A stretch of 64,000 nucleotides of DNA, from the NCBI GenBank assembly GCA_021325375.1, contig JAJPHG010000015.1, positions 1 to 64,000 of the forward strand. Direction: 5' to 3'. How positions within the stretch are numbered: position 1 is the stretch's first letter; every line of letters begins with the position of its first letter. The notes below the pieces were generated by a model. The model saw only the letters and a program-made list of their open reading frames with translations. It made no database searches and was not told the DNA's origin. Both the position numbers and the translations under genes were made by a program. Origin of the DNA: Alphaproteobacteria bacterium (GTDB taxonomy: Bacteria > Pseudomonadota > Alphaproteobacteria > Micropepsales > Micropepsaceae). Shown piece by piece: positions 6,134 through 37,238 of this stretch.

Positions 6134-6346
6134 ATGACTGCGCCCATGGATCAGCAGAACCAGCCAGCCAAGCCGCATTGGGCTTGGCCGCACGTCATCG
6201 CGGTCGTGGCCGCAATCGTCGCCTATTTCGTGATCTTCCGCTACACGGGCGACGCCGACGTGCTGCCCACCATTGCCTTGGCAGTGGCGATGGGCGGTGC
6301 CGCCTGGGTCGCGGCCTGGGCCTATCTCTTCCGCGCGCGGCGGTAG
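6134..6346 (+). CDS. Small two-helix membrane protein
   Basis: A 70-residue protein with two hydrophobic segments (about residues 20-36 and 47-66) separated by a short polar loop RYTGDAD, ending in a basic RARR tail. It starts 29 bases after hutU on the same strand, so it may be cotranscribed. A second in-frame ATG at 6146 is an alternative start. Its 3' end overlaps the convergent sulfotransferase gene by 25 bases. I do not recognise a family; it is probably a real inner-membrane protein but its function is unknown. Confidence 0.6.
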   Translation: MTAPMDQQNQPAKPHWAWPHVIAVVAAIVAYFVIFRYTGDADVLPTIALAVAMGGAAWVAAWAYLFRARR

Positions 6347-7044
6347 CCGAAGGCTTTGGAATAGTCCTTCGTAGCAAGCTCGATCTTCCTCTGCTGCGCC
6401 GCAGTGAGCACCTTCTTGAACTTGCCCACGCGCCCGTCGCCGACATGGCCGGGATGCCACTGCGTCGTGAAGTCGAACGCGTTGGGATCGGTCTCGCCCT
6501 TGTGGAGCTTCTCGATCTTCTTCTGTACCGCCTCGCGCGTCAGCGAACGGAAGATGCGCGTGCGCGCCGCCTTCGAAAGGCGCACGCCGAGGAAGCGCGC
6601 TACATGATCGACGGTGCGCTCGTCGTCCGCGAAGCCGTCCTCGTAGCGCAGGATCATGGCCCCGCGCTCGCGCGAAAGCGCTACGACGTGTCCGGCGCCC
6701 ACGCGCACGTCGCGCAGCGACGATTCGAAGGAATGGCCGAAGCGCTGCATCAGCGAGGCCACGGAATCGCGCGGCTCGCGCACGCTCACCAGCACCTTGC
6801 CGCGCGCGAAACGGGTGAGGAACAGGATGGACCTCGAGGGCTCGTGGCTCTTGATGACCAGGATCTGCGCCTTCTCGGCGCCCACAGGCAGCATCGCCGA
6901 ATTGTCGGCGAAGAACGCCGCGACCGCGCCCCTGGGCAGGCGGGCCTCTTTGAGGATGCGGATGGCGACGTTATACAGCCACGTCGACCCGCTGCTCTTC
7001 AATCCGAGGCACAGGATCACGCGCGGCGGGGCTTGTTTGGGCAT
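6322..7044 (-). CDS. Sulfotransferase-family protein
   Basis: A 240-residue protein with a PAPS-dependent sulfotransferase N-terminus: the 5'-phosphosulfate-binding loop is LKSSGSTWLYN (residues 15-25) and the 3'-phosphate-binding region is VSVREPRDSVASLMQ near residue 80. A KSHEP motif lies between them. Such enzymes move sulfate from PAPS to a hydroxyl of a glycan or small molecule. The C-terminal part is basic. The ATG at 7044 places the PAPS loop at the expected distance from the N-terminus. It is divergent from the large GT4 gene (49 bases apart), and a second sulfotransferase lies just beyond that gene, suggesting glycan sulfation. Acceptor unknown. Confidence 0.8.
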   Translation of the reverse strand: MPKQAPPRVILCLGLKSSGSTWLYNVAIRILKEARLPRGAVAAFFADNSAMLPVGAEKAQILVIKSHEPSRSILFLTRFARGKVLVSVREPRDSVASLMQRFGHSFESSLRDVRVGAGHVVALSRERGAMILRYEDGFADDERTVDHVARFLGVRLSKAARTRIFRSLTREAVQKKIEKLHKGETDPNAFDFTTQWHPGHVGDGRVGKFKKVLTAAQQRKIELATKDYSKAFGYRRARKR

Positions 7045-7093: not shown

Positions 7094-10093
7094 GTGAGCG
7101 ACGAACAGATTTCCTCCGGCGCCGAGCAGGACACCGCAAGGCGCCTCGTGCGTATGTTCGACGCCGACCGGACGGCCGCGCTCGCCCGCTTCCGCGATCT
7201 TCTCGGCCGCAAGGGGCAGGCGGGCAGGGTGCTGCAGCTCATCAACCGCGCCGACCGGCCCGACGTGGTGGCGGCGCTGGCCGAAGTCCCGGCCTTCGAC
7301 GCCAAGACCGCGGAGCTCGTCGTCGTCGAAAGCGCGCGCGCCTTCATGCGCCGCGGCGAACGTGGGCGCGCCGAGGCGCTGCTCGCAAGCGCGTCGGCGA
7401 CGCGCAAGGGCGACTACAGTTTCCAATACGCCGCGGGGCGCGTGTTCGCGGAAGTGCGCCTGCACGACAAGGCGCTGCCCTATTTCGAGGCGGCGCTGGC
7501 CGCCAGGCCGACGCAGCAGGCGGCCGAGCGCGTTTTCGCCTGCCGCCTCGCGCTCCAGCAATATCGCGAGGCGATGGTCGCGATGGGCCGCATCGCGCGC
7601 GCCGGGACCTGGCGCGAGGCGATGGCGAAGGACTTCGCGTTCCTGCTCAGGCATATCGAGCTCGGCCGGCTCGATCCCGACATCGCCTATGCGCTGTCCG
7701 AGCTCACCGGCGCCGAGGCGATCGTCGCGCCCGCGCTGATGCCGCATCTGATCGCGCTCGACCTGCGCGATTGCGTGCTTTCTTCCGTCGACCGCGCGGT
7801 GGCGAGTCTGCGGCACTGGGACGAGGAGACGCTGCTCGCGGTCATCCCTTATCTCGCAAAGCTCGGCCAGATCGATCCTCTGCTGCGCATCCGCGACCAG
7901 ATCGATGCGCCATCGCCCGCTGTCGCCAAGGCCTTCGCGGAAACGCTCGACAAGCTTGCGCCCGCGAAGATGGCACAGCATCTGGTGCCCGATCTGAGCG
8001 GCTTCACGAACGACAAATCCTGGCGCGACGCCGACGGCGTGGCGCTGCTGCGTCTCATCCCCAGGCTTGTCGCAAAGGCCGATGCGCCGCGCTTCTATGC
8101 GCGCGAGCGGCACCGCATCGCGCGTCTTGCCGCGCGCGTGCTCGGAACCCAGGATGGCGCCGTCGAGGCGCTGGTCGCGCTCGTGCTTCACGTCGCGGAG
8201 CCGCAGGTCGCGCAGTTCTTCTCAGGCCCCGAGCTGCGCGATCTCTCCAGCGCCATCGGCGAGGCGACAAGGCAGGCACAGGCGCAGGCAGGTTCGCGGC
8301 TGGCGAAGCTGCGCGACGGCTATGCGGATTTCTTCTTCGAGCGGCGCGTCGCGGCCGACCGTCTCGCGCTCGAAAGCGACGTGAACTTCACCGAGGCCGC
8401 GTTCGACTATTTCGCGACGCTGGTCAATTGGCGGCCCGCGATCCAGACCCCGGTGGGCGAGGCGCTGGCCGAGCGCCTTGCCCGGCCCGCGCTCAAGCTC
8501 GGCGACGGGCCGGTGCTCGACGTGCTCGCCTGCTGGGGCTTGATGCAGGCGCGTCCGCCCTGGTCGCTCGCGGTACCGGAGCAGTTCGCCGAAGTGTGGC
8601 CGTGGTACCTGAACGGCCTCATCGCGCGGCGCGCGATCCCGCCGCGCTGCTTCGAGCCGGGCATCAAGGCCTATCTCGACGAGGTGCTGCTGAAGGACGA
8701 TCTGGCCGGACTGTCCGTCAACCGCTTCGCGCAGATCGTCAGCGCGCGCACGCCCGAATACCGCCGCTTCGATCTCGGCAATCTCGTCGACCGCATCCTG
8801 TTGGCGCTGGAGCTCACCGCCGGGCTTCTCGCGCAGACCCCGCAATTCCTGCCTTTCGTGAAGGCGATGTTCGACAGTCCCGTGCTCGCGCGCGCGATCG
8901 CCGAATTGGGCGGTGCGGCGCTCATCGATGCGGTGGGCGGCAAGATCGAGGCGCGGCCTGCCGCTCGCGCGTCCAGCAGCGTGCAGGACATCCTGCTCGT
9001 CGGCCATGGCGGGCGCGAGACGGGGCTGGGACGCAATTTCGGCATGCTGGCGAAGGGGCTTTCGAGCGAAGGCCTTGCCGTCACCCAGGTCAATTTCGAC
9101 GCGGGCGCGGACGCGATCAGCGAGGAGATCGCGCGCTGGTACGCCCAGCGCAGCTCCAAGCCCATCGTCGTGCTCGCGGTGAACGCGCACGACGCGCCGG
9201 ACATCTTCATGAAGGACCGCGGCAACATCGTCGCGGAATGCTACACCGCCGGCTTCTATCTCTGGGAAGTCTCACACGTGCCCGACGTGCAGAGGCTCGG
9301 CGTCGAGCTCGTCGACGAGATCTGGGCGCCGACGAAATACGTGGCAAGCATCTACGCGCCCCACAAGCCGACGCATGTCGTCGGCAAAGGGCTGTTCACC
9401 GGCGACGAGCCGTTCTTCGCGCATCGCAAGCTTGCGGGCCAGAACCCGCGCTTCACCTTCGTGACCGCCTTCGATTTCGATTCCTCGATCGAGCGCAAGA
9501 ACCCGCTCGCCGCCGTGCGCGCGTTCCAGTGTGCCTTCCCCGGCAACGAGAAGGTCGAGCTGGTGGTGAAGACCTCCAACGTCAATCCGCAGCATTGGAG
9601 CAACGTCTCGGGCCAATGGGAGCGCGTGGCCGCGGCGGCCGCGTCCGACAAGCGCATCCGGCTCGTCACCGAGCGCTACAGCGACGAGGCGATGACGGCC
9701 TTGGTGCGCGACGCGGATTGCATCGTCTCGCTGCATCGTTCGGAAGGCTTCGGCTATCTCATCTCGGACGCGATGGCGTTCGGCGTGCCGGTGATCGCGA
9801 CGGATTATTCCGGCAATGCCGATTTCTGCAACGTAGAGACTTCGTTCCCCGTGAGCTACCGCATGATCGCGGTGCCGCAGGGCGCGGCGCGCTGGCGCGT
9901 CGACGGCGCGCAGTGGGCCGACCCCGACGTGGACGCGGCGGCGGCGCAGATGCGAAGCGTTTTCCTCGACCAGCAGGGCGCGCTCGCCAAGGCCGCGCGC
10001 GCGCGCGAGGCGATCAAGATCCAACTCGGAATCGACACTTTCAAGACGACGCTCGCCGCGCGCATCCGCGCCATCGCCGAAAGGCTCAATTGA
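7094..10093 (+). CDS. Large glycosyltransferase with helical N-terminus and GT4 C-terminus
   Basis: A 999-residue protein. Residues about 1-600 are alpha-helical and TPR-like, with Ala/Leu/Arg-rich repeats. Residues about 630-999 form a GT-B glycosyltransferase. The acceptor half begins DILLVGHGGRETGLGR, and the donor half has the FTFVTAFDFDSS strand and the HRSEGFGYLISDAM loop near residue 885, where the second acid of the usual EX7E motif is Asp. The GTG at 7094 is chosen over the in-frame TTG one codon earlier because of the GGTGGA sequence upstream. Its stop overlaps the next start by one base. It probably adds sugars to the island's polysaccharide; substrate unknown. Confidence 0.8.
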   Translation: MSDEQISSGAEQDTARRLVRMFDADRTAALARFRDLLGRKGQAGRVLQLINRADRPDVVAALAEVPAFDAKTAELVVVESARAFMRRGERGRAEALLASASATRKGDYSFQYAAGRVFAEVRLHDKALPYFEAALAARPTQQAAERVFACRLALQQYREAMVAMGRIARAGTWREAMAKDFAFLLRHIELGRLDPDIAYALSELTGAEAIVAPALMPHLIALDLRDCVLSSVDRAVASLRHWDEETLLAVIPYLAKLGQIDPLLRIRDQIDAPSPAVAKAFAETLDKLAPAKMAQHLVPDLSGFTNDKSWRDADGVALLRLIPRLVAKADAPRFYARERHRIARLAARVLGTQDGAVEALVALVLHVAEPQVAQFFSGPELRDLSSAIGEATRQAQAQAGSRLAKLRDGYADFFFERRVAADRLALESDVNFTEAAFDYFATLVNWRPAIQTPVGEALAERLARPALKLGDGPVLDVLACWGLMQARPPWSLAVPEQFAEVWPWYLNGLIARRAIPPRCFEPGIKAYLDEVLLKDDLAGLSVNRFAQIVSARTPEYRRFDLGNLVDRILLALELTAGLLAQTPQFLPFVKAMFDSPVLARAIAELGGAALIDAVGGKIEARPAARASSSVQDILLVGHGGRETGLGRNFGMLAKGLSSEGLAVTQVNFDAGADAISEEIARWYAQRSSKPIVVLAVNAHDAPDIFMKDRGNIVAECYTAGFYLWEVSHVPDVQRLGVELVDEIWAPTKYVASIYAPHKPTHVVGKGLFTGDEPFFAHRKLAGQNPRFTFVTAFDFDSSIERKNPLAAVRAFQCAFPGNEKVELVVKTSNVNPQHWSNVSGQWERVAAAAASDKRIRLVTERYSDEAMTALVRDADCIVSLHRSEGFGYLISDAMAFGVPVIATDYSGNADFCNVETSFPVSYRMIAVPQGAARWRVDGAQWADPDVDAAAAQMRSVFLDQQGALAKAARAREAIKIQLGIDTFKTTLAARIRAIAERLN

Positions 10094-10692
10094 TGCTGCT
10101 CAGCCTGAACCGCAAATTCATCTTCATCGCGAACCTGAAATCGGCGTCCTCGGCGATCGAGGCGGCGTTGGCGCCCAAGGCCGACATCCGCTTCACCCAG
10201 ACCCAGTTCGGCAAGCACGATCCCTTGAGCGAGGTCTCGCGCAAATACGCCTGGGTGAAGAAATACGTTCCTTACGACGAGTTCTACGTCTTCGCGGTGA
10301 TCCGCGATCCGGTCGACTATCTGCTCAGCCTGTACAACTCCCACCACAAGGACGAGTTCGACGGCAAGATCCACTCGACCAAGAACATGGCCTTCGACGA
10401 GTTCCTCGACGTGTGGTGCGGGCGCAGCTGGCAGGCCAAGCCGCAGCATCTGCGTTTCGTCGACAGTCACGGCCGCTTCAAGCTCAGCCACCTGGTCCTC
10501 TATGACGACCTCGCCGACGAGTTCGGCCAGGTCTGCGTGCATCTCAAGCTCGGCTGGGTGGAACTCCCCCAAAGGAACCTGAGCCCCGTGATGCTCAACC
10601 GCGCCGACCTCACCGCCGCCCAGGTGGCGCTGATCAAGAGCCGGTATGCCGAGGATTACGAGTGGATCCGCAACCGTCCGCGGCTTCTCTGA
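10093..10692 (+). CDS. Sulfotransferase family 2-type protein
   Basis: A 199-residue protein of the carbohydrate sulfotransferase type (the family of chondroitin and heparan sulfotransferases). The 5'-PAPS loop is IANLKSASSAIEAAL (about residues 12-26), and the 3'-phosphate motif FAVIRDPVDYLLSLYN lies near residue 70, with the RDP and following Ser/Tyr in place. A basic, aromatic C-terminus ends YEWIRNRPRLL. The start overlaps the stop of the preceding GT gene by one base (TGATG), implying coupled translation, and the TPR gene follows closely. Together with the divergent sulfotransferase at 6322-7044, it suggests that the polymer made here carries sulfate esters. Confidence 0.82.
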   Translation: MLLSLNRKFIFIANLKSASSAIEAALAPKADIRFTQTQFGKHDPLSEVSRKYAWVKKYVPYDEFYVFAVIRDPVDYLLSLYNSHHKDEFDGKIHSTKNMAFDEFLDVWCGRSWQAKPQHLRFVDSHGRFKLSHLVLYDDLADEFGQVCVHLKLGWVELPQRNLSPVMLNRADLTAAQVALIKSRYAEDYEWIRNRPRLL

Positions 10693-11506: not shown

Positions 11507-14500
11507 ATGTCTGACGACGAAACGAGCAAACCGTCTTTGCCGCCGGACATCGAGGCCGTGAGGGCCGAGCGCAAGGCGGCCAAGCGGCAGGCGCAAGCCG
11601 AGCGTCGCGCGGCCAAGCCGGCCGCGGCGCCCGAAGCGCAAGCCGCGCGTGCCGAGCGCAAGGCCGCCAAGCAGCAGGCCAAGGAAGCCAAGAAAAGCAA
11701 AACGCCCGACACCGAAGCGGCGAAAGCGCAGCGCAAGGCCGCCAAGCGGCAGGCGCAAGCCGAGCGTCGCGCGGCCAAGCCGGCTGCGGCGCCCGAAGCG
11801 CAAGCCGCGCGTGCCGAGCGCAAGGCCGCCAAGCGGCAAGCCAAGGAAGCCAAGAAAAGCAAAACGCCCGATACCGAAGCGGCGAAAGCGCAGCGCAAGG
11901 CCGCCAAGCAGCAGGCCAAGGAAGCCAAGAAAAGCAACGCACCCGACACCGAAGCCGCGAAAGCCGAGCGCAAAGAGGCCAAACGCCAGGCCAAGGACGC
12001 CGCGAAGGCCGCGCGCGAAGCCAAGGCTGCCGAAGCGCTCGCGGCCAGGGCCGCGCGCAAGACCGGCAAGCGTCAGACCAAGGAGGTCGAGAAGGCGCAG
12101 CGAAAAACGGCCAAGCCCGCCGCTTCTGCGGAAGCGCAAGCTCAGCGCGCCGAGCGCAAGGCCGCCAAGCGGCAGACGAAAGAGGCCAAGAAGGCCAAGG
12201 TGCCGGACGAGCTGGCCGCGAAGGCCGGGCGCAAGGCCGTGAAGCAAGCCGCCAAGCCCGAGAAATCTCCGCAAGCCAAGGCCGAGCGCAAGGCGGCCAA
12301 GCAGCAGGCGAAAGAGGCCAAGAAGGCCGAGACACCGGAAGAGCTGGCCGCGAAGGCACAGCGCAAGGCGGCCAAGCAGCAGGCGAAAGAGGCCAAGAAG
12401 GTCAAGACGCCGGAAGAGCTGGCAGCGATAGCCGAACGCAAGGCCGCCAAGCAGGGCGCCAAGCCCGAGAAACCGCCCGAAGCCAAGGCAGAGCGCAAGG
12501 CGGCGAAGCAGCAGGCGAAAGAAGCCAAGAAGGTCAAGACGCCGGAAGATCTCGCAGCAAAAGCCGAACGTAAGGCGGCCAAGCAGCAGGCCAAGGAACC
12601 CGCGCCCGCGGACGCCGGCAACGCCGAGGAGAAGGCCGCCAAGAAGCAGGCCAAAGCCGAGCGCAAGGCAGGCAAGGCCGAGAAGAGTCCGGAAGAAGCG
12701 GCCGCCAAGGCCGAGCGCAAGGCGAAGAAGGCGGCCGCCAAGGCCGCAGGTTCCGACGCTGCGTCCGAGGGCACCTCGCTCAAGGAGCGCAAGGCCGCCA
12801 AGGCCGAGAAGAAAGCGGCGAAGAGCAAGGCGAAGAAGGCGGCCGCCAAGGCCGCAGGTTCCGACGGTGCGTCCGAAGGCGCCTCGCTCAAGGAGCGTAA
12901 GGCCGCCAAGGCCGAGAAGAGAGCGGCGAAGAGCAAGGCGCGCGCGGATGGCGAGGGTGGCGAGCGCTCGGTCCGCCTGAACGTCGCCGGCGCGAGCCCC
13001 GAAGAGGTGACGCCGCTGGGCACGGCGCTGCAGGCCGCGTTCGCCGCCGCGGGTGCGCCGACCGAAGCGCCCAAACCGGAAGGCAAGGCCGACGTCGTCG
13101 TCCACACCTTCGACGATATGGGCGACGATGCCGATGCGGCGACCCTCGAGCGCTATGCCGCGGTCGTCGCCGGCCGGAAGGCGCGCGTCCACGTCTTCGT
13201 CGAGAAGCTCGAAGAGGACGGCGCGGTGGAGCGCGCCATCGCGCGCCTGGCGGCGCTGAACGGCGGCGCGGTGGTGAGCACGCGTGCCATGCTCAAGCGC
13301 TTCGGTCTCGAGCAAACCTCGTCCGACGGTCGTCCGAACGAAAAGGGCCTGGCGCTGATCGCGCAGGCCATCGTCGGCATCGGGGCTGCGCGCCTGACGA
13401 AGCACAGCGTCAACCCGCTAGCAGGCGAGGTGCCCGCCGACCTCGCCGAGGCGCGTGCGGCCGCGCAGCAGCCGATGGAACTGCTCGCGAAACTGCGCTG
13501 GAGCGGCATGACGCCGCCGCGCGCGCTCGGCGCCTCGATCCGCGAGGAAGACGTCATAGCGTTCGCGGATTCGAAGATCGTCTTCTCGGAAGAAGCCTCG
13601 CTCGCGCTCACTACGCCGGTCGATTGGAGCGTGGAGCTGCCCGACCGCAAGGCGAACTACATCTTCAACGGCCTGGATTTCCTCTCCGGTCCGCTCGCCT
13701 ATTGGTACGCCAAGGCGAACAACCAGGGTTCGGAGCGCACCGCCGCGATCGACGCGGCGCTCAAGGAGCGCGGCACCAATCCGAATGCGCTGCTCGCGCG
13801 CGCCACCCAGATCCTCGTCGATTTCACCGCCAGGCATCCCAGGTCCGCGGCGCCCAAGCTGTGGGAGGAAGAGCTCGTCCTGCGCCGCGCGCCCGTGCTC
13901 GCGCTGTTCGTGCTGTGCTGCCGCGTCGCCTATAGGCGCAAGCTCAAATTCAACGAGAGCGCCTTCACGGTGATCTACAACGCGCTGCTCGACCACGCCG
14001 AGATGCTGCGCGCGGACGATTTCTACGTGCCCTGCTCGGTCGACGGCATCAAGCAGGACAGCCTCGCGGTCGGCATCGCGCTGTCGCTGCGCGGCACGGC
14101 ATACGGCAACCTTCTCCTGGGCGACGCGCTCGAGCGGCTCAAGCGCCTGCAGTTGGGTCCGGGCCTGTCGGCGGAAGGCGTGTGGCTGGGCGATTCCTAT
14201 ACGACGCACAACAACGCGCTGTCGGAGATCACGGGCCTGTTCAACGATTTCCCGCCCGCCGAAACGGCGCGCCTGGAGCCTCTCGCCGCCGCCGCCAAGA
14301 AGATGACGCTGTTCTCCGAGGCCATGCTCAAGAGCAACGGCCAGCCGCCGGCCTTCGACGGCAGCAAGGAGAAGTCCTACGGCAACAAGATCTCAGGCAT
14401 GCGCAAGTCGATCGCGCGCGCCGGCGGCAAGCAGGTCTCGGCCGGCAAGGCCACGCTCAAGACCCGCATCACCGACACCTATGTCTTCCGCGAGGCGCAA

Positions 14501-15271
14501 TATTTCATCAGCCACTCGCAGCAGAAGGTCGTTGCCGAATCCTCGCTCGTGGTGCTGCATGCCGCCGCCCCCTCGGTCGTGCATGAGGATCCCGGCGGGG
14601 TGAAGCTCGTCTTCGCCTACAACGAAACCAACCTGCTCGTCCGCGCCGAGCCGCCGGAAGCGCAAGGCGAGGAGGAGCCCGACGAGACCGATCCGGGCTT
14701 GCGCAACTTCTATCGCGTCGCGGGCCAGGGCAACCTTGACCCCGAAAGCGGCTCGGACGGGACCGCGCACATGGTGAAGTCCTGGCGCGGGCCGGGCTGG
14801 GCGGCCGCCAAGGCGTTCGAGAACAACTATGACGGCGCCGCGGTCGCGCGCACGGTGATCCACTTGAAAGCCCAGCACGCGCTGATCGTCGTCGACGAGC
14901 TGGAGAGCGCAAAAGAGGCGCTCTTCGAGCAGTTCTGGAACGTCGGTCCGGATTTCACCACTCCCGAGACGCCGGAGATGCCGCTGCGCTTCGCCTCGGA
15001 CGGCAGGGGCGTGCTGAGCGTCGTCCTTGCCGGGACGGACGACGTATCGACCACGAAGGGCGAGACGGGCACGAGACTGCGCAGCGAGAAGCGGCTGACC
15101 CAGGATGTCGCGGCCGCGCTCTTTCAGTGGACGGACGAAGCGGCGCCCGCCGCTCTCGCCGTCGAGCGCCGGGGTGCGGGCGAATGGGCGGTGACGGCCT
15201 CCGGAAAGGGCTTTGCGGCCCGCCTTAACCATGCGGGCGACGAGCTGAGTTGCGAGCTCGGCGAGGGATAA
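11507..15271 (+). CDS. Heparinase II/III-family protein with long Lys/Ala-rich repeat N-terminus
   Basis: A 1254-residue protein. Residues about 12-480 are almost wholly Lys, Ala, Arg, Glu and Gln in imperfect units around AERKAAKQQAKEAKK, predicted as a very basic extended helix or disordered region. Residues about 485-600 are a small folded linker. The rest resembles heparinase II/III polysaccharide lyases: an alpha toroid (ANYIFNGLDFLSGPLAYWY, then GVWLGDSYTTHNNALSE) and a C-terminal beta-sandwich (residues about 980-1254). The family cleaves uronic-acid-containing acidic glycans, usually outside the cytoplasm. No signal peptide is visible, which is odd for a lyase, so it may act on the polymer inside the cell. 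It starts 20 bases after the TPR gene. Confidence 0.8.
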   Translation: MSDDETSKPSLPPDIEAVRAERKAAKRQAQAERRAAKPAAAPEAQAARAERKAAKQQAKEAKKSKTPDTEAAKAQRKAAKRQAQAERRAAKPAAAPEAQAARAERKAAKRQAKEAKKSKTPDTEAAKAQRKAAKQQAKEAKKSNAPDTEAAKAERKEAKRQAKDAAKAAREAKAAEALAARAARKTGKRQTKEVEKAQRKTAKPAASAEAQAQRAERKAAKRQTKEAKKAKVPDELAAKAGRKAVKQAAKPEKSPQAKAERKAAKQQAKEAKKAETPEELAAKAQRKAAKQQAKEAKKVKTPEELAAIAERKAAKQGAKPEKPPEAKAERKAAKQQAKEAKKVKTPEDLAAKAERKAAKQQAKEPAPADAGNAEEKAAKKQAKAERKAGKAEKSPEEAAAKAERKAKKAAAKAAGSDAASEGTSLKERKAAKAEKKAAKSKAKKAAAKAAGSDGASEGASLKERKAAKAEKRAAKSKARADGEGGERSVRLNVAGASPEEVTPLGTALQAAFAAAGAPTEAPKPEGKADVVVHTFDDMGDDADAATLERYAAVVAGRKARVHVFVEKLEEDGAVERAIARLAALNGGAVVSTRAMLKRFGLEQTSSDGRPNEKGLALIAQAIVGIGAARLTKHSVNPLAGEVPADLAEARAAAQQPMELLAKLRWSGMTPPRALGASIREEDVIAFADSKIVFSEEASLALTTPVDWSVELPDRKANYIFNGLDFLSGPLAYWYAKANNQGSERTAAIDAALKERGTNPNALLARATQILVDFTARHPRSAAPKLWEEELVLRRAPVLALFVLCCRVAYRRKLKFNESAFTVIYNALLDHAEMLRADDFYVPCSVDGIKQDSLAVGIALSLRGTAYGNLLLGDALERLKRLQLGPGLSAEGVWLGDSYTTHNNALSEITGLFNDFPPAETARLEPLAAAAKKMTLFSEAMLKSNGQPPAFDGSKEKSYGNKISGMRKSIARAGGKQVSAGKATLKTRITDTYVFREAQYFISHSQQKVVAESSLVVLHAAAPSVVHEDPGGVKLVFAYNETNLLVRAEPPEAQGEEEPDETDPGLRNFYRVAGQGNLDPESGSDGTAHMVKSWRGPGWAAAKAFENNYDGAAVARTVIHLKAQHALIVVDELESAKEALFEQFWNVGPDFTTPETPEMPLRFASDGRGVLSVVLAGTDDVSTTKGETGTRLRSEKRLTQDVAAALFQWTDEAAPAALAVERRGAGEWAVTASGKGFAARLNHAGDELSCELGEG
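11569..11892 (+). repeat. Two tandem 162-bp units inside the heparinase gene
   Basis: The 162 bases from 11569 recur almost perfectly from 11731, encoding two 54-residue copies of the Lys/Ala-rich unit; a shortened third copy begins at 11893. The near-identity at DNA level indicates recent unequal recombination or slippage within the coding sequence, keeping frame. Confidence 0.85.
12722..12937 (+). repeat. Two tandem 108-bp units inside the heparinase gene
   Basis: A second, separate in-frame duplication: 108 bases from 12722 recur from 12830 with few changes, giving two 36-residue copies containing KAAGSD, ASEG and LKERKAAKAEK. It marks the end of the basic tail before the folded region. 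Confidence 0.8.
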
Positions 15272-15334: not shown

Positions 15335-17419
15335 ATGTCCGGCCAGTATCGAGGCGTGGTCAAGGTCACCGGTGCCGCGATCCGCGGCTGGCTGGTCGAT
15401 GTCGCCCGTCCGGCGCGGCGCGTGAAGTTCGATCTCCTCATCGACGATCATCCGCGCGGCTCCTATGTCGCCGATGCGCGCAGAAGGTTCCTGTCGCCGC
15501 GCAAGGGCGCGGACGAGGACACGCACGGCTTCTCGATCCCGATCCGCAAACCCTGGATCAGCGGCGCGCTGCAGACGGTGCGCATCGAGGGGGGCGATGC
15601 TTCGGGCTTGCGCTTCTCGATGTCGGTTCGGCTCGGGCCGCGCGCGCATGAGCATTTCGAGGACCATGTCGTCAGCGGCCAGGGCTCCATCGGCCAAAGC
15701 TCCATCAGTCAGGGCGAGCGCGCGCCCGCGCGCCGCGCCGTCCAGCCTCTCGACGACGAGCCCGAGCCGGACCTCCGGCTGGCCGCGAACAAGGCGTTGC
15801 TCAGGCAGATCGGCGCGCTCTCCGATGCCGAGCTGATCAATCTCCTCGTCGCCGTCGACCGCGACGTCCTGATGCAGCGTCTCATGCGCTACGAGAAGAC
15901 GGGCGATTGGGAAAAGCTCGCGCCGTTCAAGCGCGCCATCGCGGGCGCCGCGGGCGAGCAGCTTCTGACCAGCTTCGGACGTTCCGCCGCGAAGGCGCAC
16001 AGCCATGCGCTCGCGGCGCGCGTGACTTCGGCCGCGGCGGCGCTGTATCCCGCTTCCTATGAAGCGCACTACCTCGCCGGCACGACCAAGGTGGCGCAGG
16101 GCGAGTTCGACGAGGCGCTGCGCCATCTGCGCGCGGCGGACAAGCTGGAGAAGGACGGCGCGCGCGCCAAGCGCGAGATGGCGCTGACGCTGGCCCGGCA
16201 GCTGCGCCAGGATATTCCCGTCGCGCGCCGCGCCGAGATCCGCGAGGAGCATATCGCGCTGCTGCGCGCGCTGAGCGGATCGGGCGATCTGGCGACGCAT
16301 GTGAAATACCGCGTTCCCTATGCGATGGCGCTCTATTCCGCCGGCCGCTACGAGGAGGCGATCCTGGCCGCCGACGCGGTGCTGGCGCCGGCGCCCAACG
16401 ACACGCGCGCGCTGATGGTCAAGGCGCGCGCGCTGGTGGCGCGCAATCTCGTCGGCGAGGCGCATGCGCTCTATGAGCGCGTGCTGGAGCTCGATCCCGG
16501 CCATCGCGGCGCCAAGGTGAACCTGCGCATCCTCACCACCCTGGTCGAGGACGAGAGCCGCGACGGCGACAAGACCGGCGTCGTCGCCGCGCGCGCGATC
16601 GCTGTGAAGAACGGCGCGCCGCTCGCCGACATCCTGAGCCGTCTGTCCGAGAGCTGGATCTGCATCGACGGCGCGGCGAAGGGCCATGCCCAGGACCACG
16701 AAGCCGAGCTCGCCCCCGCCGCGGCCCGGCGCGTGGGCTGCGTGGAGCTCAACGGCGCGGGCGAGTTCTGGCGCAGGGAAGCGCTTCTGGGCCTTGCCGA
16801 AAGCGGGCTGCTCGCAAGCCTCGACGACCGCGCGGCGCTGAGGCGCTGGAAGCCCTTCTATGTCGCGCGGCCCGAGCCGGCGCGCCTCGGGGCGCGGCGC
16901 GGGCTTGCGGTGCTGACCTCGCGCAACGGCGCCGATCTCTACGGCGGCGGCGAGCATTTCCTCGAGGAGACGGCGGAGCATCACGCGCGCCAGGGCTACG
17001 ACGTCGTCATCTTGGGGGCGCGTCCGGAGCGCGCCGGCGAGGAGCACAAGGTGGGTGGCCGGCGCGCGGCGTTCGTGGGCGAGCAGCCGGCCGAGCTGCG
17101 CCGTTTCGTGCTCGAGAACGGCGCGAGCCTGGTGCATGCGATCTCCGGCATGGGCTTTTCGGCGGTCGAGGCGCTCGCCTTCACCAACATCGCCTTCGTC
17201 TACGGCGTACATTTCTGGAACGAGCTTCTGGGCGATCCGGAACGCTCGGAATATTTCGACGACGTCTCGGGCGGTGCGCTGGCCAGGCGCGAGTTCCTCG
17301 TCATCCTGTCGCGCGCCACCGCCGTCTACGCCAATTCGCGCTACACCCAGAAGATCGTCGAGGAGGGCTTCGGCGTGCGCTGTCCGGTGCTCTACGCCGT
17401 GCCGCGCGAGCGGTCATGA
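15335..17419 (+). CDS. TPR-containing glycosyltransferase, apparently truncated after the acceptor domain
   Basis: A 694-residue protein. Residues about 1-110 form a beta-rich domain starting SGQYRGVVKVTGAAIRGWL. Residues about 200-410 carry TPR units (e.g. AGRYEEAILAADAVLAPAP). Residues about 515-694 resemble the N-terminal acceptor half of a GT-B enzyme (RGLAVLTSRNGADLYGGGEH, then LSRATAVYANSRYTQKIV). It stops just where the donor-binding Rossmann domain of a GT4 enzyme should begin (last residues PVLYAVPRERS). No continuation appears in any frame downstream; instead an opposite-strand lower-GC gene follows after 22 bases. It may be a broken GT or work with a separate donor subunit. An in-frame TTG at 15314 is an alternative start. 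Confidence 0.7.
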   Translation: MSGQYRGVVKVTGAAIRGWLVDVARPARRVKFDLLIDDHPRGSYVADARRRFLSPRKGADEDTHGFSIPIRKPWISGALQTVRIEGGDASGLRFSMSVRLGPRAHEHFEDHVVSGQGSIGQSSISQGERAPARRAVQPLDDEPEPDLRLAANKALLRQIGALSDAELINLLVAVDRDVLMQRLMRYEKTGDWEKLAPFKRAIAGAAGEQLLTSFGRSAAKAHSHALAARVTSAAAALYPASYEAHYLAGTTKVAQGEFDEALRHLRAADKLEKDGARAKREMALTLARQLRQDIPVARRAEIREEHIALLRALSGSGDLATHVKYRVPYAMALYSAGRYEEAILAADAVLAPAPNDTRALMVKARALVARNLVGEAHALYERVLELDPGHRGAKVNLRILTTLVEDESRDGDKTGVVAARAIAVKNGAPLADILSRLSESWICIDGAAKGHAQDHEAELAPAAARRVGCVELNGAGEFWRREALLGLAESGLLASLDDRAALRRWKPFYVARPEPARLGARRGLAVLTSRNGADLYGGGEHFLEETAEHHARQGYDVVILGARPERAGEEHKVGGRRAAFVGEQPAELRRFVLENGASLVHAISGMGFSAVEALAFTNIAFVYGVHFWNELLGDPERSEYFDDVSGGALARREFLVILSRATAVYANSRYTQKIVEEGFGVRCPVLYAVPRERS

Positions 17420-17837: not shown

Positions 17838-18608
17838 GTGTTTTCCGATCTCAAGACCCAGTTCAACGTCATCAAGGCGCTGACCATCCGCGACATGCAG
17901 GGTCTGATGTCGAGCTACAATTACGGCTTCGCCTGGGCGCTGCTCGAGCCGATGATGTTCATCGGCATCATGCGCGTGCTGCGCTCGGCGTTCAAAGGGC
18001 TGACGCCGCCCAACATGCCGCCTTCGACCTTCCTCATCGTCGGCATCGTCCCGTTCTATCTCTACATCCAGGCGATCCAGGCAGCGAGCGGAGCGGTTTC
18101 GAGTTCCGACAAGATGCTCGAATTCCCGCGCGTCACGCCCGTCGATCTCGCGATCTCCTCGGCGCTGACCAGCTTCTGCATCTACTTCGCGCTGTTCTGC
18201 GGCTTCACATTGTTCTTCTCGAACTACGAAGGCGCGTGGCCGCCCAAGAACGCGATGGAGGTGCTTTTCGCCTTCGTCATGGTGTGGGCGCTCGGCGTCG
18301 CGCTCGGCCTCGTCGTCGGCACCACGGCGCGCGTCTTCCCGCCGATCAAGAATTTCATGTCCTATTACAATCTCGCCAACCGCATGATGGGCGGGATGCT
18401 GTTCGTCGCCACCATGTTCCCGCAGTCGTTCTGGCCCTATTTCACCTGGAACCCGATCTTCCACTGCATGGAGATGCTGCGCGAAGGCTGGTTCGTCACC
18501 TACACCTCGCCCGTCGCCGACCCGGCCTATGTGCTGGAATGGCTGCTCGGGCTCTCCCTGCTCGGCCTCTCGCTCGAGCGCTTCCAGCGCCGCGTGCCCT
18601 ATATATGA
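17838..18608 (+). CDS. ABC-2 polysaccharide export permease, KpsM-like
   Basis: A 256-residue inner-membrane permease of the capsule/O-antigen ABC-2 type. Hydrophobic helices are visible at about residues 30-50, 60-85, 105-130, 140-160, 170-195 and 225-245. The N-terminal amphipathic stretch KALTIRDMQGLMSSYNYGFAWALLEPM and the MSYYNLANRMMGGMLF segment are typical of KpsM/RkpM-type permeases. It would form the channel that carries a lipid-linked polysaccharide across the inner membrane. The start is a GTG. Its stop overlaps the next start as ATGA, so it is coupled to the KpsT-like gene, as in other capsule loci. Confidence 0.88.
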   Translation: MFSDLKTQFNVIKALTIRDMQGLMSSYNYGFAWALLEPMMFIGIMRVLRSAFKGLTPPNMPPSTFLIVGIVPFYLYIQAIQAASGAVSSSDKMLEFPRVTPVDLAISSALTSFCIYFALFCGFTLFFSNYEGAWPPKNAMEVLFAFVMVWALGVALGLVVGTTARVFPPIKNFMSYYNLANRMMGGMLFVATMFPQSFWPYFTWNPIFHCMEMLREGWFVTYTSPVADPAYVLEWLLGLSLLGLSLERFQRRVPYI

Positions 18609-19336
18609 GCATCGAGCTGCGCGACGTGACGAAGAAGGTGCGGCTGGGCCCGATCAGGCTCACCTACGAGAATCTCAACATCAACGTCCCCGACGGCTCG
18701 AGCGTGGCGCTCTTGGGGCGCAAGGAAGCCGGGCTCGACGCGATCACCAAGCTGATCTGCGCCGCCGACGCGCCGGACAGCGGCCGCGTCATCCGCTCGC
18801 ATTCGATATCCTGGCCGATCCCGAGCGCGAGCTTCGTGGCGTCCCATCTTCCGCTCATCGCCAATGCGCGCTTCATCGCGCGGCTCTATGAGGTGGACGA
18901 GAAGGCCTATCTCGCGCAGCTGGAGGAGTACGGCCGCTTCGGCGACGCGCTCCACACCGTCGTCAAGAACTGCCCGGCCGAGATCCGCTCGCTGTTCTGC
19001 TTCCTCTGCGGCATCATACTGCCCTTCGACCAGTACATCTTCACCAGCCTCAGCGTCGGCCCCAAGAGCGAGCGCGGGCGCATCGGCGAGATGGTGGACG
19101 ACCTGCGCCAGCGCGCCGGCTTCCTCCTCATCGGCCAGGACGTGAAGTCCGCTCAAGCCTATTGCAGCCAGGCCTATATCTTCGACCAGGGGGTGGCGAC
19201 CCACTACGACGACATGGAGGCGGCCATCGAGCACTTCAGCTCCATCGAGGAGAAGGACGTCGAGGATGACGGCTTCATGGCCGATCCGGAGCTGGAAGAC
19301 CTCGTCAATGTCGACTTCCAGAATGCCCTGCCGTGA
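18605..19336 (+). CDS. Degenerate KpsT-like ABC ATPase homologue
   Basis: A 243-residue protein that aligns along its length with KpsT-type ATPases but has lost the catalytic motifs. The Walker A position reads G38-RKEA-G43-L44-D45, so the essential Lys and Ser/Thr are gone. The signature loop is CPAEIRS rather than a YSSGM/LSGG-type motif. The Walker B and catalytic Glu region reads FDQYIFTSL, with no Asp-Glu. The H-loop is IGQD, Gln for His. An acidic C-terminal tail (EEKDVEDDGF) follows. ATP hydrolysis by this protein is therefore not expected. It is coupled to an apparently intact permease, and no second ATPase gene is in the window. It may be structural or a partner of another ATPase. 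Confidence 0.75.
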   Translation: MSIELRDVTKKVRLGPIRLTYENLNINVPDGSSVALLGRKEAGLDAITKLICAADAPDSGRVIRSHSISWPIPSASFVASHLPLIANARFIARLYEVDEKAYLAQLEEYGRFGDALHTVVKNCPAEIRSLFCFLCGIILPFDQYIFTSLSVGPKSERGRIGEMVDDLRQRAGFLLIGQDVKSAQAYCSQAYIFDQGVATHYDDMEAAIEHFSSIEEKDVEDDGFMADPELEDLVNVDFQNALP

Positions 19337-19396: not shown

Positions 19397-20314
19397 ATGT
19401 CCAACTTTGAATCCTCCAATAGCGCGACCGAGCCGCGTTCGGGCCTGGCGGGCGTGACCGGCGTCGGCGGCGCGATCTGGGGCGCGCTCAAGGCGACCTT
19501 CCAGCGCATCGGCGAGAGCTTCTCGTTCTGGTCGGTGGTCGGGGCCGTGGCGCTGCTCTCGACCCTCTATTACTTCGTGTTCGCCGAGTCGCTCTACGAT
19601 TCCCAGGCGATCCTCAGCATACAGAACAAAGGCTCCACAGCGAGCGGCGTGGGCTCGATCCTGGGCAGCGCGCTGGGCAGCAGCGGCAGCTCGACGCAGG
19701 CTGGGCAGATCACCGACTACATCAACTCGATGGAGATGCTGCGCATCCTGGACAAGAAGTACCATCTGCGCACGCTCTACCGCTCGCCCGAGCGCAACCC
19801 GTTCTGGCGACTCTACTTCGCCGATACGGACGAGAACTTCCTGTGGTTCTACCAGCACATGTTCGCGGTCGATTCCGATACCGACGACGGCACCTTGACC
19901 GTCGACGTCTACGACTACGATCGCGGGCGCGCGCACCAGATCAGCGAGACGATCACCCAGGAATCCGAGAAGTTCATCAACGACATCAACACCAAGATGC
20001 AGCAGCAGACGATGCTGTTCGCGCGCAACGAGCTCTCCGCCTCCGTCAAGGCCGTGGCGGCTGCCAAGACGCCAGAGGACCAGTCCGTCGCCGAGATGCG
20101 CCTGACCGCGGCGCAGCAGGCGCTGGCCTCGGTGGAGGGCGCCGCGAATCAGCAGACGATCTTCATCGTGCCGATCTCCGCGCCCTCGCTTCCGACCGAG
20201 ACGACCGAGCCGGAGCGGCTGTTCAACATCATCACCATCACGGTGCTTGCCGCGCTCATCTACGCGGTCGGCTTCCTGATGTGGAGCAACGTGCGCGACC
20301 ACAGGAAGGCGTAA
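19397..20314 (+). CDS. Capsule polysaccharide co-polymerase, KpsE-like
   Basis: A 305-residue inner-membrane protein of the Wzz/KpsE co-polymerase type: an N-terminal transmembrane helix (SVVGAVALLSTLYYFVFAE, about residues 50-68), a periplasmic domain with a Gly/Ser-rich GSILGSALGSSGSS stretch and a helical region, and a second transmembrane helix (ITITVLAALIYAVGFLMW) near the C-terminus. KpsE links the ABC exporter to the outer-membrane channel. The ATG at 19397 has a GGGAG Shine-Dalgarno at 8 bases; an upstream TTG at 19346 with GAGGGG is an alternative. It is last in the exporter operon, 60 bases after the KpsT-like gene. No KpsD-type outer-membrane partner is present here. Confidence 0.8.
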   Translation: MSNFESSNSATEPRSGLAGVTGVGGAIWGALKATFQRIGESFSFWSVVGAVALLSTLYYFVFAESLYDSQAILSIQNKGSTASGVGSILGSALGSSGSSTQAGQITDYINSMEMLRILDKKYHLRTLYRSPERNPFWRLYFADTDENFLWFYQHMFAVDSDTDDGTLTVDVYDYDRGRAHQISETITQESEKFINDINTKMQQQTMLFARNELSASVKAVAAAKTPEDQSVAEMRLTAAQQALASVEGAANQQTIFIVPISAPSLPTETTEPERLFNIITITVLAALIYAVGFLMWSNVRDHRKA

Positions 20315-23241: not shown

Positions 23242-24762
23242 ATGAAACGGCCATTCGACGTTCTCTTCATCACAGCGGACCAGTGGCGGGCGGAGTGCCT
23301 CTCGGCGCTTGGCCACCCGAGCGTGCGCACGCCCCATCTCGACGCCCTGGCGCAGGGCGGCGTGCTGTTCCGCAACCACTTCGCCAATGCGGTGCCTTGC
23401 GGGCCGTCGCGCGCCTCGCTGCATACGGGTATGTATCTTCAGAACCATCGCTCCGGCACCAACGGCACGCCGCTGGACGCGCGCCACACCAACTGGGCGA
23501 AGGAGGTGGGGCGCGCGGGCTACGATCCGGTGCTGTTCGGCTACACCGACACGAGCATCGATCCGCGCGGCGTCGAGGCGGACGACCCCTGGCTGCGCAC
23601 CTATGAGGGCCCGCTCCCCGGCATCCGCGTCGCCGTGATGATGGGCGAGAAGCCGCACCCCTGGACCGACTGGCTGAAGGCGCGAGGCTTCGCGGTGCCT
23701 GAGGACATCCGTTACGCCTATTCGATGCGCGGCCCCGGCCCCGACTATGAGGACGGCGCGGCTGTGCCCAAGCCGCTCGCGCTGCCGGTCGAGGCCGACG
23801 ACACCTCGTTCCTCGTCGACCGCTGCATCGATTATATCCGCGCCGCGAAAGAGCCGTTCGTGGCGCATCTGTCGATCCTGCGGCCGCACCCGCCCTTCAT
23901 CGCGCCCGAGCCCTATAATGCGATGTACGATCCGCTCGGCGTGCCGGGATTCGCGCGGCGCGCGACGCCGGAAGACGAAGCGTCCCAGCATCCCTGGCTC
24001 GCGCACCAATTGTCGCGCCGCCTGTTCCGCGCGCCTGCCGACGAGAAGAAGCTGCGCCGGCTGAAGGCCGTCTATTACGGGCTGATGAGCGAGGTCGACA
24101 CGGCGATCGGGCGCGTGATCGCGGCGCTGAAAGAGACCGGGCGCTGGGAGACGACGCTGATCGTCTTCACTTCCGACCACGGCGAGCAGATGGGCGACCA
24201 CTGGCTGCTCGGCAAATGCGGCTATTTCGACGAATCCTATCGCGTTCCGCTGATCGTGCGCGACCCGCGGCAGCCCCAAGTGCATGGCAGCGTCGTCGAC
24301 GACTTCACCGAGAATGTCGATATCATGCCGACGATGCTGGACGCGCTCGGCCTCGACATGCCCGTGCAATGCGACGGCCGTTCGCTCGCACCCTTCCTGG
24401 AGGGCAAGAGCGCGCCGGGCAACTGGCGGCAGGAAGCGCATTGGGAATACGATTTCCGCAATCCCGCCGACGACGCCGTGGAGAAGCGCCTCGACCTGAC
24501 GCTGCATCAATGCACGCTGAACGTCGTGCGCGGGCGGCGCTACAAATACGTGCACTTCACCAAGCTGCCGCCGCTCTTCTTCGATCTGGAGCGCGACAGA
24601 CACGAGTTCGAGGACCGCGCGCGCGATCCGGCCTATCTGCCGCTCGTGCTCGAGCATGCGCAGAAGCTGCTCTCGTGGCGCATGAACCACGACGAGCAGA
24701 CGCTCACCCATATCGCGCTCAGGGATGAAGGCCCGGTGCACCGCGCCGCGCCGCGCGTTTGA
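23242..24762 (+). CDS. Phosphonate monoester hydrolase / sulfatase-family hydrolase
   Basis: A 506-residue alkaline-phosphatase-superfamily hydrolase. The nucleophile motif is VPCGPSRASLHTG: Cys53 in C-x-P-S-R is the residue converted to formylglycine in sulfatases. Metal ligands are visible as ITADQ (Asp13) and FTSDHGEQMGDH, with LLGKCGY following. The whole sequence follows the Rhizobium/Burkholderia phosphonate monoester hydrolases more closely than classical arylsulfatases (GYDPVLFGYTDT, LRPHPPFIAPEPYNAMY, QEAHWEYDFR, YKYVHFTKLPPLFFDL). These enzymes are promiscuous for phosphonate, phosphodiester and sulfate esters. No signal peptide is seen, so it is probably cytosolic. It needs a formylglycine-generating enzyme encoded elsewhere. 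Confidence 0.88.
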   Translation: MKRPFDVLFITADQWRAECLSALGHPSVRTPHLDALAQGGVLFRNHFANAVPCGPSRASLHTGMYLQNHRSGTNGTPLDARHTNWAKEVGRAGYDPVLFGYTDTSIDPRGVEADDPWLRTYEGPLPGIRVAVMMGEKPHPWTDWLKARGFAVPEDIRYAYSMRGPGPDYEDGAAVPKPLALPVEADDTSFLVDRCIDYIRAAKEPFVAHLSILRPHPPFIAPEPYNAMYDPLGVPGFARRATPEDEASQHPWLAHQLSRRLFRAPADEKKLRRLKAVYYGLMSEVDTAIGRVIAALKETGRWETTLIVFTSDHGEQMGDHWLLGKCGYFDESYRVPLIVRDPRQPQVHGSVVDDFTENVDIMPTMLDALGLDMPVQCDGRSLAPFLEGKSAPGNWRQEAHWEYDFRNPADDAVEKRLDLTLHQCTLNVVRGRRYKYVHFTKLPPLFFDLERDRHEFEDRARDPAYLPLVLEHAQKLLSWRMNHDEQTLTHIALRDEGPVHRAAPRV

Positions 24763-34522: not shown

Positions 34523-35548
34523 ATGAGCGGTGGATTCGGACACGTGTTACGCAAAACCGGGAGCCTCGTCCCCGCGGCGCTCACGCGCGGCTTCGCGAGG
34601 CCCGTGGCGCTGTTTTTCCACGGCGTCGAGCACCGCATAGACGATTCACGCGCCCAGTCGAATCACCATGATATTGCGTCTTTTTCGAAGATCGTCCGAG
34701 TCCTCAAGGACAATTTCGACGTGCTGCCGCTTTCGATGCTCGACGAGGTCCTGAGCGCGCCCTTGCGTCATCGCCGCAGCGTGTTCCTCATGGCCGATGA
34801 TGGCTACGCGAACAACCTCAGCGTGGCCCAAGCCGTCCTGCAGGAGTTCAACTTGCCGTGGACTATTTTCCTGTCCACGCATCACGTCGATACCACAGAG
34901 CGAAACCCGGCCTTTCTCGCGCGGTTGTTTTTTCTTTTCGCCCCCAGTGCGAAATACGATATCGCGAACCTGCACGCGCAAATCACGCTCGACGACGGCC
35001 AAAACCGCGCCGCCGCCGCCGATCTTTGGGTGGGCAGGCTCAAGGCGCTCGATGCCGGACGCGCGCAAGCGGCGCTTGATTCGATGCGCGCGCAGTTCGA
35101 AGGCCTCGACGCGCTGGCGGGGAGGTATGCTTCGGACGCATTCCTGACCTGGCCCGAAGTCGCGGCGCTGAAGGCCGACGGCGTCGAGATCGGCGCCCAT
35201 GCCCATTGGCACTGGCCGATGCATGGCGCGCAGACGCCCGAATATCTGGGCGAGCAGGCGCGGCTGTCGCGCGCGCGCATCGAGGCCGAGATCGGGCCCT
35301 GCCGCTACTTCGCCTATCCCTTCGGGAACACGCAGGACATCGGGCGCGAAGCGTGGCGGGCGGTGCGCGACGCCGGCTACGACTACGCCTTCACCACGCT
35401 CTCCGGCTCGCTGGACGCGAGCACCAACCGCTGGCTGATGCCGCGCTACGGACTTGCGCTCCACGAGAAGCGGCTGCCCGCGCTGGTGCCCTGGCTCAGC
35501 GCCGGCAACAGCCGGTTGCGCGCCTGGCAAAGGCAAATGGCGGGTTAA
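34523..35548 (+). CDS. Polysaccharide deacetylase family protein
   Basis: A 341-residue CE4 (NodB-fold) protein. The catalytic Asp pair sits in FLMADDGYANNL, near residue 93, where the family has TFDDG. The zinc histidines are in GVEIGAHAHWHWPM, and a YFAYPFGNTQDIG segment is the family RPPxG-like strand. No signal peptide or transmembrane helix is evident. The family removes N- or O-acetyl groups from glycans. The ATG at 34523 has CCGGGG upstream; a TTG at 34508 is possible. It heads the Wzx/Wzy-type operon and may modify its repeat unit. Confidence 0.82.
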   Translation: MSGGFGHVLRKTGSLVPAALTRGFARPVALFFHGVEHRIDDSRAQSNHHDIASFSKIVRVLKDNFDVLPLSMLDEVLSAPLRHRRSVFLMADDGYANNLSVAQAVLQEFNLPWTIFLSTHHVDTTERNPAFLARLFFLFAPSAKYDIANLHAQITLDDGQNRAAAADLWVGRLKALDAGRAQAALDSMRAQFEGLDALAGRYASDAFLTWPEVAALKADGVEIGAHAHWHWPMHGAQTPEYLGEQARLSRARIEAEIGPCRYFAYPFGNTQDIGREAWRAVRDAGYDYAFTTLSGSLDASTNRWLMPRYGLALHEKRLPALVPWLSAGNSRLRAWQRQMAG

Positions 35549-35703
35549 CCACACGCCGTCCCAAAGCGGGAATGGCCTTGCGCAAGGCCCGTGCGCGGGC
35601 GTGCCGCTCTCGCACGCTTCTGTGCCGAATTGGCCGGCGCGATCCCATCGTCCCTGGCGCGTTCCCTGCAGCCTTCCAGCCGGATTTGAAGGCTTGTCGT
35701 GGC

Positions 35704-36384
35704 GTGAGCGTGCAAGAGCACTTCGTGGAAGCGGATCGGCAGGGCGATGCCCTCGGCCATCCCTTCGCGCTCGAGCCCACGGCCCCTCTGGCGCTCTATC
35801 CCGCCCTCAAGCGGCTGCTCGATCTGGTGATCGCCGTGCCGGTGCTGATCGCGGGCGCGCCGTTCCTGATCGCCATCGCGCTGTGGATCCGCCTCGACTC
35901 CAAGGGCCCCGCGCTGTTCCGCCAGACGCGGCTGGGGCAGGGTGGCCGTTCCTTCGGCATCCTCAAATTCCGCACCATGAACGTCGTCGAGGACGGCGCC
36001 TGCGTCGTCCAGGCGGCGCGCAACGATTCGCGCATCACAAGCGCGGGCCGTTTCCTGCGCGCTTCCAGCCTCGACGAGCTGCCGCAGCTCCTGAACGTCA
36101 TCAGGGGCGAGATGTCGCTCGTCGGCCCGCGCCCGCATGCGAGCGCGCACGACGCGCTCTATTCCGCGCTGATCCCCGAATACAACGGCCGCCAGGCGGT
36201 CAAGCCCGGCATCACGGGCTGGGCGCAGATCAACGGCTATCGCGGAGGCACGCCGACGCTCGACCTGATGCAGAAGCGCGTCGAGTTCGATCTCTGGTAC
36301 ACGCGTCACGGTTCGCTCGGCCTCGATCTTCGCATCCTCGCGCGCACGCCGCTCGAGATGCTGCGCGGCAGGAATGCCTACTGA
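35704..36384 (+). CDS. Priming undecaprenyl-phosphate sugar phosphotransferase
   Basis: A 226-residue bacterial sugar transferase of the short ExoY/Pss type (one membrane helix plus catalytic domain, without the WbaP/WcaJ N-terminal half). The helix is LLDLVIAVPVLIAGAPFLIA. Catalytic motifs are LFRQTRLGQGG, FGILKFRTMN, SSLDELPQLLNVIRGEMSLV, GPRP, and PGITGWAQINGYRGG. It moves a sugar-1-phosphate from a UDP-sugar to undecaprenyl phosphate, the first step of repeat-unit assembly. The start is GTG at 35704; a second GTG two codons on is possible. Its stop overlaps the next start by one base. Confidence 0.93.
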   Translation: MSVQEHFVEADRQGDALGHPFALEPTAPLALYPALKRLLDLVIAVPVLIAGAPFLIAIALWIRLDSKGPALFRQTRLGQGGRSFGILKFRTMNVVEDGACVVQAARNDSRITSAGRFLRASSLDELPQLLNVIRGEMSLVGPRPHASAHDALYSALIPEYNGRQAVKPGITGWAQINGYRGGTPTLDLMQKRVEFDLWYTRHGSLGLDLRILARTPLEMLRGRNAY

Positions 36385-37184: not shown

Positions 37185-37238
37185 ACGGGTCCGAAACTTG
37201 CTTCGTGCCTGATGGCGCGAACGTTTTTAGGACCTCAA

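Follow-up and report, generated by a model that had tools for sequence, protein, structure and literature searches.

The 64,000-nucleotide stretch analysed here (the window) carries, in order on the + strand, genes for a KpsM-like permease, a KpsT-like protein and a KpsE-like protein (Table 1). The KpsT-like frame starts with ATG, is open over 243 codons, as the original prediction had read it, and overlaps the end of the permease gene by the four bases ATGA. In phmmer the protein matches the solved KpsT chain 8tsh_A with an E-value of 1.2e-26, residues 3-214 aligning with chain residues 2-218. The last 29 residues fall outside this alignment. The Pfam ABC_tran model gives the protein 14.9 bits, under its 25-bit cut-off, and the top NCBIfam match, VexC (E 1.1e-8), lies far under the cut-off of that model. 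The permease scores 107 bits with the KpsM model, whose cut-off is 300 bits, and matches the solved KpsM at E 9e-17.

Table 1. Features of the locus, with positions in the window.
Feature	Position	Strand	Basis
TPR protein whose C-terminal part is a GT4 N-terminal domain; Glycos_transf_1 not matched	15335..17419	+	domain search
KpsM-like permease, 256 aa, GTG start; W33 keeps the Trp45 equivalent, L23 replaces the Arg35 equivalent	17838..18608	+	profile, phmmer
ATGA, in which the stop of the KpsM-like gene overlaps the start of the KpsT-like gene	18605..18608	+	sequence
KpsT-like protein, 243 aa, all four ATPase motifs lost	18605..19336	+	sequence, phmmer, alignment
Codons 67-95 of the pseudo-ATPase, best conserved stretch, putatively permease-docking	18803..18889	+	alignment (docking role presumed)
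KpsE-like protein of the periplasm, 305 aa if translated from the ATG; earlier TTG at 19346 possible	19397..20314	+	profile, phmmer
UDP-GlcNAc 2-epimerase, WecB-like; neighbour also in L016, L017, L018 and L063	20433..21494	-	domain search, locus comparison

The residues on which an ABC ATPase depends are replaced throughout. In the window protein the Walker A Lys/Ser place is Leu44/Asp45, the signature place reads CPAEIRS, the Walker B Asp-Glu place is Thr147/Ser148 and the switch His place is Gln178. In 21 motif-intact relatives the Walker A Lys and Ser, the signature Ser and Gly and the Walker B Asp and Glu are each found in 21/21, and the His in 20/21. The replacements called in the original prediction (Leu44/Asp45, CPAEIRS, loss of Asp-Glu, Gln for His) are all correct. 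These 21 were chosen by us from 37 KpsT rows, leaving aside the eight rows of the window's clade, L015, L032 and L083 (which have the motifs; L083 is almost the same as L082), and the partly degenerate L090, L091, L096, L101 and L117. Judged by its sequence, the protein is a KpsT homologue over the ATPase domain that lacks all four motifs of an active ATPase. A predicted structure from a four-row alignment (pLDDT 52.9) was too weak to serve as evidence; the best fold matches of this low-confidence model were KpsT 8tsh/8tsl at a TM of about 0.5, which is consistent with homology.

The same gene, open and lying between KpsM-like and KpsE-like genes, is present in 8 of 96 genomes of the family, all eight in one genus. 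The first homologue search, in 61 genomes (the window's own and 60 relatives), gave eight with a match at E<=1e-5, and a further scan of genome contigs gave the loci L016, L017 and L018, which were taken as those of G013, G011 and G076, respectively. A profile built from the eight window-type sequences, run on the same 96 family genomes as the gene-order search, matched 17 of them at E<=1e-20. Eight, all in the window's genus, matched at E<=1e-97; the other nine matched at 1e-43 to 1e-21 and keep GKS, an S-x-G-M signature and Asp-Glu in 9/9. Searching by KpsM profile matched 17 genomes out of 69 in the genus at E<=0.001, and 27 of 387 class genomes at E<=1e-15, where the clade is represented by G000 and G074 only.

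Within the clade the loss of motifs is graded. Six members (the window, L016, L017, L018, L058 of G074 and L059 of G075) have no Walker A Lys/Ser, signature, Asp-Glu or His, while the two sister sequences L010 (G003) and L011 (G004) keep GKS and FDE, have CPRF at the signature place and lack the His. The eight therefore count 2/8 for each of the Walker A Lys and Ser and the Walker B Asp and Glu, and 0/8 for the signature Ser, the signature Gly and the His. Thus the substitutions of the window protein are shared by homologues in part: six lack every motif, but Walker A and Asp-Glu survive in two. Cys-Pro at the signature place (8/8) is a lineage-specific constant, and by eye the KpsT-like proteins of the clade have an acidic C-terminal tail. 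In the KpsT tree of 37 rows the eight are joined with support 99/96, the six with 100/99 and L010 with L011 with 98/92. The KpsM tree of 42 rows joins the six with 100/99 and all eight more weakly, with 88/65; the two trees give compatible relations for the eight. The original prediction took orthologues with intact Walker A and B as a sign of decay. L010 and L011 do keep both, yet the signature and His are already lost there while the frames are open, and we therefore read them as an intermediate step rather than as decay. Their state suggests that the motifs were lost stepwise, and the simplest sequence of events would be that the signature and the His went first and Walker A and Walker B later.

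The surroundings of the module are partly conserved. The window and L016, L017 and L018 have in common the order TPR protein, Lys/Ala-rich protein, half glycosyltransferase, KpsM-T-E and then WecB, a 6-phosphogluconolactonase and a 6-phosphogluconate-dehydrogenase-like protein (the last by eye). The WecB relative in L063 (62%) adjoins KpsE, and L059 has two weakly similar genes upstream. Since the remaining neighbours of L058, L059, L063 and L064 differ, KpsM-T-E is the constant unit. The Lys/Ala-rich protein, in which a very Lys/Ala-rich N-terminal half is joined to a C-terminal half, spans 11537-15271 of the window and has relatives of 42-51% identity in L016-L018; the piece 13100-15268 gave no Pfam, NCBIfam or PDB match. 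The half glycosyltransferase gave no match in a PDB search, and the donor-binding domain, Glycos_transf_1, was found neither in it nor in its L016, L017 and L018 orthologues. That domain does not follow downstream in L016-L018 either, because KpsM starts within about 100 bases. The TPR-glycosyltransferase is a possible second pseudo-enzyme beside the dead KpsT.

Two sulfotransferase-like genes (6322-7044 and 10093-10692) and a sulfatase (23242-24762) flank the KpsMTE locus of the window. L016 and L018 have a sulfotransferase, which is absent from L017, and also a sulfatase; the L017 locus ends before the place of the latter. These genes might point to a sulfated polymer. At 34544-43751 the window has a separate locus for exopolysaccharide, whose genes include those for a sugar transferase, a WecG-type transferase, Wzy_C and Wzz/AAA. 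Two marker searches were of little use. KpsC/KpsS (PF05159) gave no match in G000 and matched 3 of 69 genus genomes, one of them in the clade (G011, partial), but G026 and G081, two of three genomes of the genus with an intact KpsT beside KpsM, also lack PF05159 (the third, G016, does not), and we no longer treat its absence as specific evidence. Outer-membrane Poly_export proteins are uninformative, being present in 63 of the 69.

Both partners of the dead subunit have changed as well, as far as their sequences tell: KpsE clearly and KpsM slightly. The window KpsE matches 8tsh_E at E 1.9e-28 in two separate pieces (residues 44-225 and 232-303), and the alignment stops at chain residue 202 and resumes at 299, so that about 203-298 is absent. 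The KpsE proteins of L059 and of L063, which belongs to the L010 genome, align with a comparable gap, after which the match is weak (i-E 0.77 and 0.1), while a control KpsE from the same genus, beside an intact KpsT, aligns to 8tsh_E unbroken. KpsE is 305-328 aa long in the eight, whereas uncut copies elsewhere have frames that measure 368-674 aa from stop to stop, 19 of 21 rows being no longer than 492; L075 and L118 among these rows represent a single gene, and frames ending at the locus edge (L077, L078, L081, L086) were omitted. According to PMC11041684, residues 205-290 of the solved KpsE are disordered, are predicted to form an extra hairpin and are suggested to contact KpsD. By this alignment the window KpsE is without the segment thought to face KpsD. 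A structure prediction of the window KpsE from a four-row alignment was poor (pLDDT 51.9), and the short hairpin in it is a hint only.

The permease had been described as apparently intact. It is a KpsM relative with the Trp45 place kept, as in 8/8 clade members, but one mostly conserved canyon arginine is replaced: the Arg35 place is Arg in 0/8 of the clade, against 21/27 of the rest and 4/5 of the other degenerate rows with a letter there. Residue numbers follow the phmmer alignment plus an offset of three derived from several residues named in PMC11041684. The table of canyon residues has 42 KpsM rows, 28 of them in the rest group (27 with a letter), which includes two pieces of one gene (L100), the near-duplicates L082/L083 and the KpsT-less orphans L097, L120 and L121. 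Loss of Arg89 and Arg94 was considered as evidence of a changed substrate and dropped, as both vary in the rest group too (Arg in 10/27 against 0/8 of the clade, and in 8/27 against 1/8, respectively).

Several observations bear on whether the gene is kept. All eight frames are open; a TGA listed early on inside two members came from a match running beyond the gene end. Nei-Gojobori dN/dS ratios, which are biased by the high G+C and in part by saturated dS (the L010-L011 value for KpsT is infinite) and are read here only as lying below 1, are 0.32-0.56 for KpsT, 0.26-0.45 for KpsM, 0.20-0.51 for KpsE and 0.27-0.35 for WecB among the four closest members, with KpsT somewhat above WecB. Comparing the window with the distant L058 and L010 gives 0.59 and 0.60, respectively, for KpsT and 0.42 and 0.57 for KpsM, and for L058/L059 the ratio is 0.18 with saturated dS. 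Seventeen columns are invariant across the eight sequences, and 8 of the 17 fall inside residues 67-95, for which P = 2e-4 is optimistic as the stretch was picked after viewing the alignment. We take this to be the Q-loop-bearing, permease-contacting stretch. From the motif-intact relatives to the eight, mean information falls from 3.91 to 2.85 bits in Walker A, from 3.65 to 2.95 in the signature and from 3.62 to 3.02 in Walker B, that is, to about the level of the rest of the protein (2.52 to 2.88), and it rises from 3.06 to 3.38 in residues 67-95. The His region shows no drop (2.64 to 2.97 bits) though the His itself is absent. Because eight open frames stand in KpsM-T-E order, with dN/dS of 0.32-0.56 in the closest members and compatible trees, we read the gene as retained, which upholds the preference of the original prediction for a retained pseudo-ATPase. 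The sequence record thus supports the view that the gene is not decaying: stops, frameshifts and relaxed selection, the marks of a pseudogene, are not seen.

How could a KpsT without its catalytic residues be of use? We think it rather likely that the protein is a retained pseudo-ATPase in an inner-membrane complex derived from KpsMTE, which would no longer be powered by ATP hydrolysis of its own KpsT and would serve as a scaffold or channel. A Walker B mutant of StKpsT, the KpsT of Schlegelella thermodepolymerans, abolished detection of hyaluronan at the surface, according to PMC11041684; a motif-less KpsT should therefore not drive classical export. On the other hand, the constant association of the three genes, the open frames and the conserved residues 67-95 speak for a subunit that goes on holding the complex together. 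A scaffold or passive conduit is favoured because both of these considerations apply. The dead KpsT would still dock beneath KpsM, and once docked it would keep the permease dimer placed within the KpsE ring. The complex might then serve the polysaccharide locus as a scaffold or channel, static or gated passively, rather than as a classical capsule pump, perhaps as a platform for chain length or assembly, like a short PCP. A role other than export has a precedent in Bordetella pertussis, where BvgS oligomerisation was impaired without KpsT and the whole transport machinery was suggested to matter (PMC4264864).

A different way to rescue the permease would be to borrow a motor, with another active ABC ATPase pairing with the dead subunit or at times replacing it. 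The original prediction had offered such a heterodimer with an active ATPase, and heterodimeric exporters with one degenerate site are indeed known. A canonical KpsT elsewhere in the genome had been named as the thing to look for. The window's own genome, 4.77 Mb and rated 100% complete, yielded none: with the canonical query P0010 the dead gene is itself the top match (9.1e-28), generic ABC ATPases follow only from 1.4e-12 on, and the two next after the dead gene, GldA/DrrA-like and ModC, belong to other families. The 22 matches at E<=0.001, the dead gene included, do leave other ABC ATPases at hand. Each of the eight clade genomes gave a single match to KpsM (E<=0.001) and a single KpsT-like one (E<=1e-20, 29 of 41-63 first-look candidates scored in each), with no second KpsT or KpsM found at these thresholds; the other seven genomes are 91-100% complete, apart from G011 at 75%. 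That the dead subunit pairs with an active KpsT is therefore unlikely. In an ABC dimer, Walker A and B from one subunit and the signature from the other make up each composite site, and a subunit without all three would break both sites of a heterodimer. We consider a borrowed motor improbable.

We give about as little credence to two further explanations. The module may have lost its function in this lineage, the gene being a slowly decaying relic whose frames survive by chance or because the loss is recent. The stepwise loss of motifs and the KpsT dN/dS somewhat over that of WecB would fit such a course. Under neutral drift over the observed distance, 2.9, 3.4 and 3.8 stops would be expected in three pairs, with probabilities of seeing none of 0.058, 0.023 and 0.020, the three pairs sharing the window sequence; the 0.058 of the closest pair leaves some room for a relic. 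Against it stand eight of eight frames open when the seven other members are only 25-66% identical to the window protein, the low probabilities in the same pairs, the 0.18 for L058/L059 (saturated dS) and the invariant columns, and a relic is accordingly judged improbable too. The other explanation is that the KpsT fold now binds a ligand other than ATP, or another protein, and acts in the control of assembly or signalling without any transport, as a neofunctionalised regulator or assembly chaperone. The lineage constants (Cys-Pro in 8/8 and, by eye, the acidic tail) could be read this way, as could the link between KpsT and BvgS in B. pertussis (PMC4264864) and a sensor-histidine-kinase-like gene (by eye; L058 1869-4442), which in that one locus of the eight lies some 2 kb away from the module on its KpsE side. 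The constant co-inheritance with KpsM and KpsE weakly indicates a membrane complex instead, and a regulator or chaperone is likewise judged improbable.

Within the preferred reading of a retained scaffold or channel, a more specific proposal can be made tentatively, and we hold it to be less likely than not to be right: permease, dead ATPase, shortened ring protein and, in four genomes, half glycosyltransferase would have been kept as a polysaccharide machine that works without ATP, whether as a passive conduit with polymerisation as its driving force or as a structural platform for setting chain length. The altered KpsE and the upstream glycosyltransferase that enter into it are additions beyond the original prediction.

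Partly degenerate KpsT-like proteins are also found in other alphaproteobacterial families: L090 and L091 (f39), L101 and L117 (f60) and L096 (f12). The signature is altered in 5/5 and the His lost in 4/5, while Walker A is kept in 5/5, and unlike in the window's clade the KpsE frame is 430-457 aa in the four measured. In the KpsT tree L090/L091 are neighbours of the eight, with a low support of 86/50. Since the KpsM rows of these five do not group with the window's clade in the KpsM tree, ATPase decay may have occurred more than once, separately in these families. L103-L106 and L117 (G423, G214, G227, G278 and G372) likewise have partly degenerate KpsT-like proteins with an altered signature and Walker A kept, and Asp-Glu has become Asp-Gly in four of these five. 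Some permeases stand by themselves: in f22 genomes (L113, L114, L120) an orphan KpsM-like permease lies near dnaK-dnaJ (by eye), and neither KpsT nor KpsE was matched within the stretch read; L112 (G309) has KpsM and KpsE with no KpsT match; and L110 (G107) has a lone KpsM whose closest tree relatives carry a degenerate KpsT.

An ATP-driven motor is what defines an ABC exporter, and where degenerate sites are known they normally have an active partner beside them. A KpsT without its motifs was not found described in the open-access literature as represented by titles and the starts of abstracts, subscription papers and preprints lying outside this range. A lineage keeping permease and ring protein with only a dead motor would reveal which tasks an ABC complex can perform when hydrolysis is gone, and the intermediates L010 and L011 together with the shortened KpsE offer a testable series that separates the docking parts of KpsT from its catalytic parts. 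Heterodimeric exporters such as MsRv1273c/72c and BmrCD are alike in having a nucleotide-binding site that is catalytically impaired; their partner site is active, whereas here no active KpsT partner was found. Of the group 2-type KpsMTE export systems, the locus has KpsM and KpsE beside KpsT, but not the tip segment of KpsE. The ring protein compares with the class-3 PCP KpsE (8tsh_E), with which it aligns in two stretches without about 203-298, its total being 305 aa. The closest known system is the KpsMT-KpsE exporter of S. thermodepolymerans (PDB 8tsh/8tsl): the window protein resembles its KpsT in homology over residues 3-214 and in having its gene beside KpsM and KpsE, and differs from it in lacking all four motifs, in its extra acidic C-terminal tail and in having a shortened KpsE as its partner.
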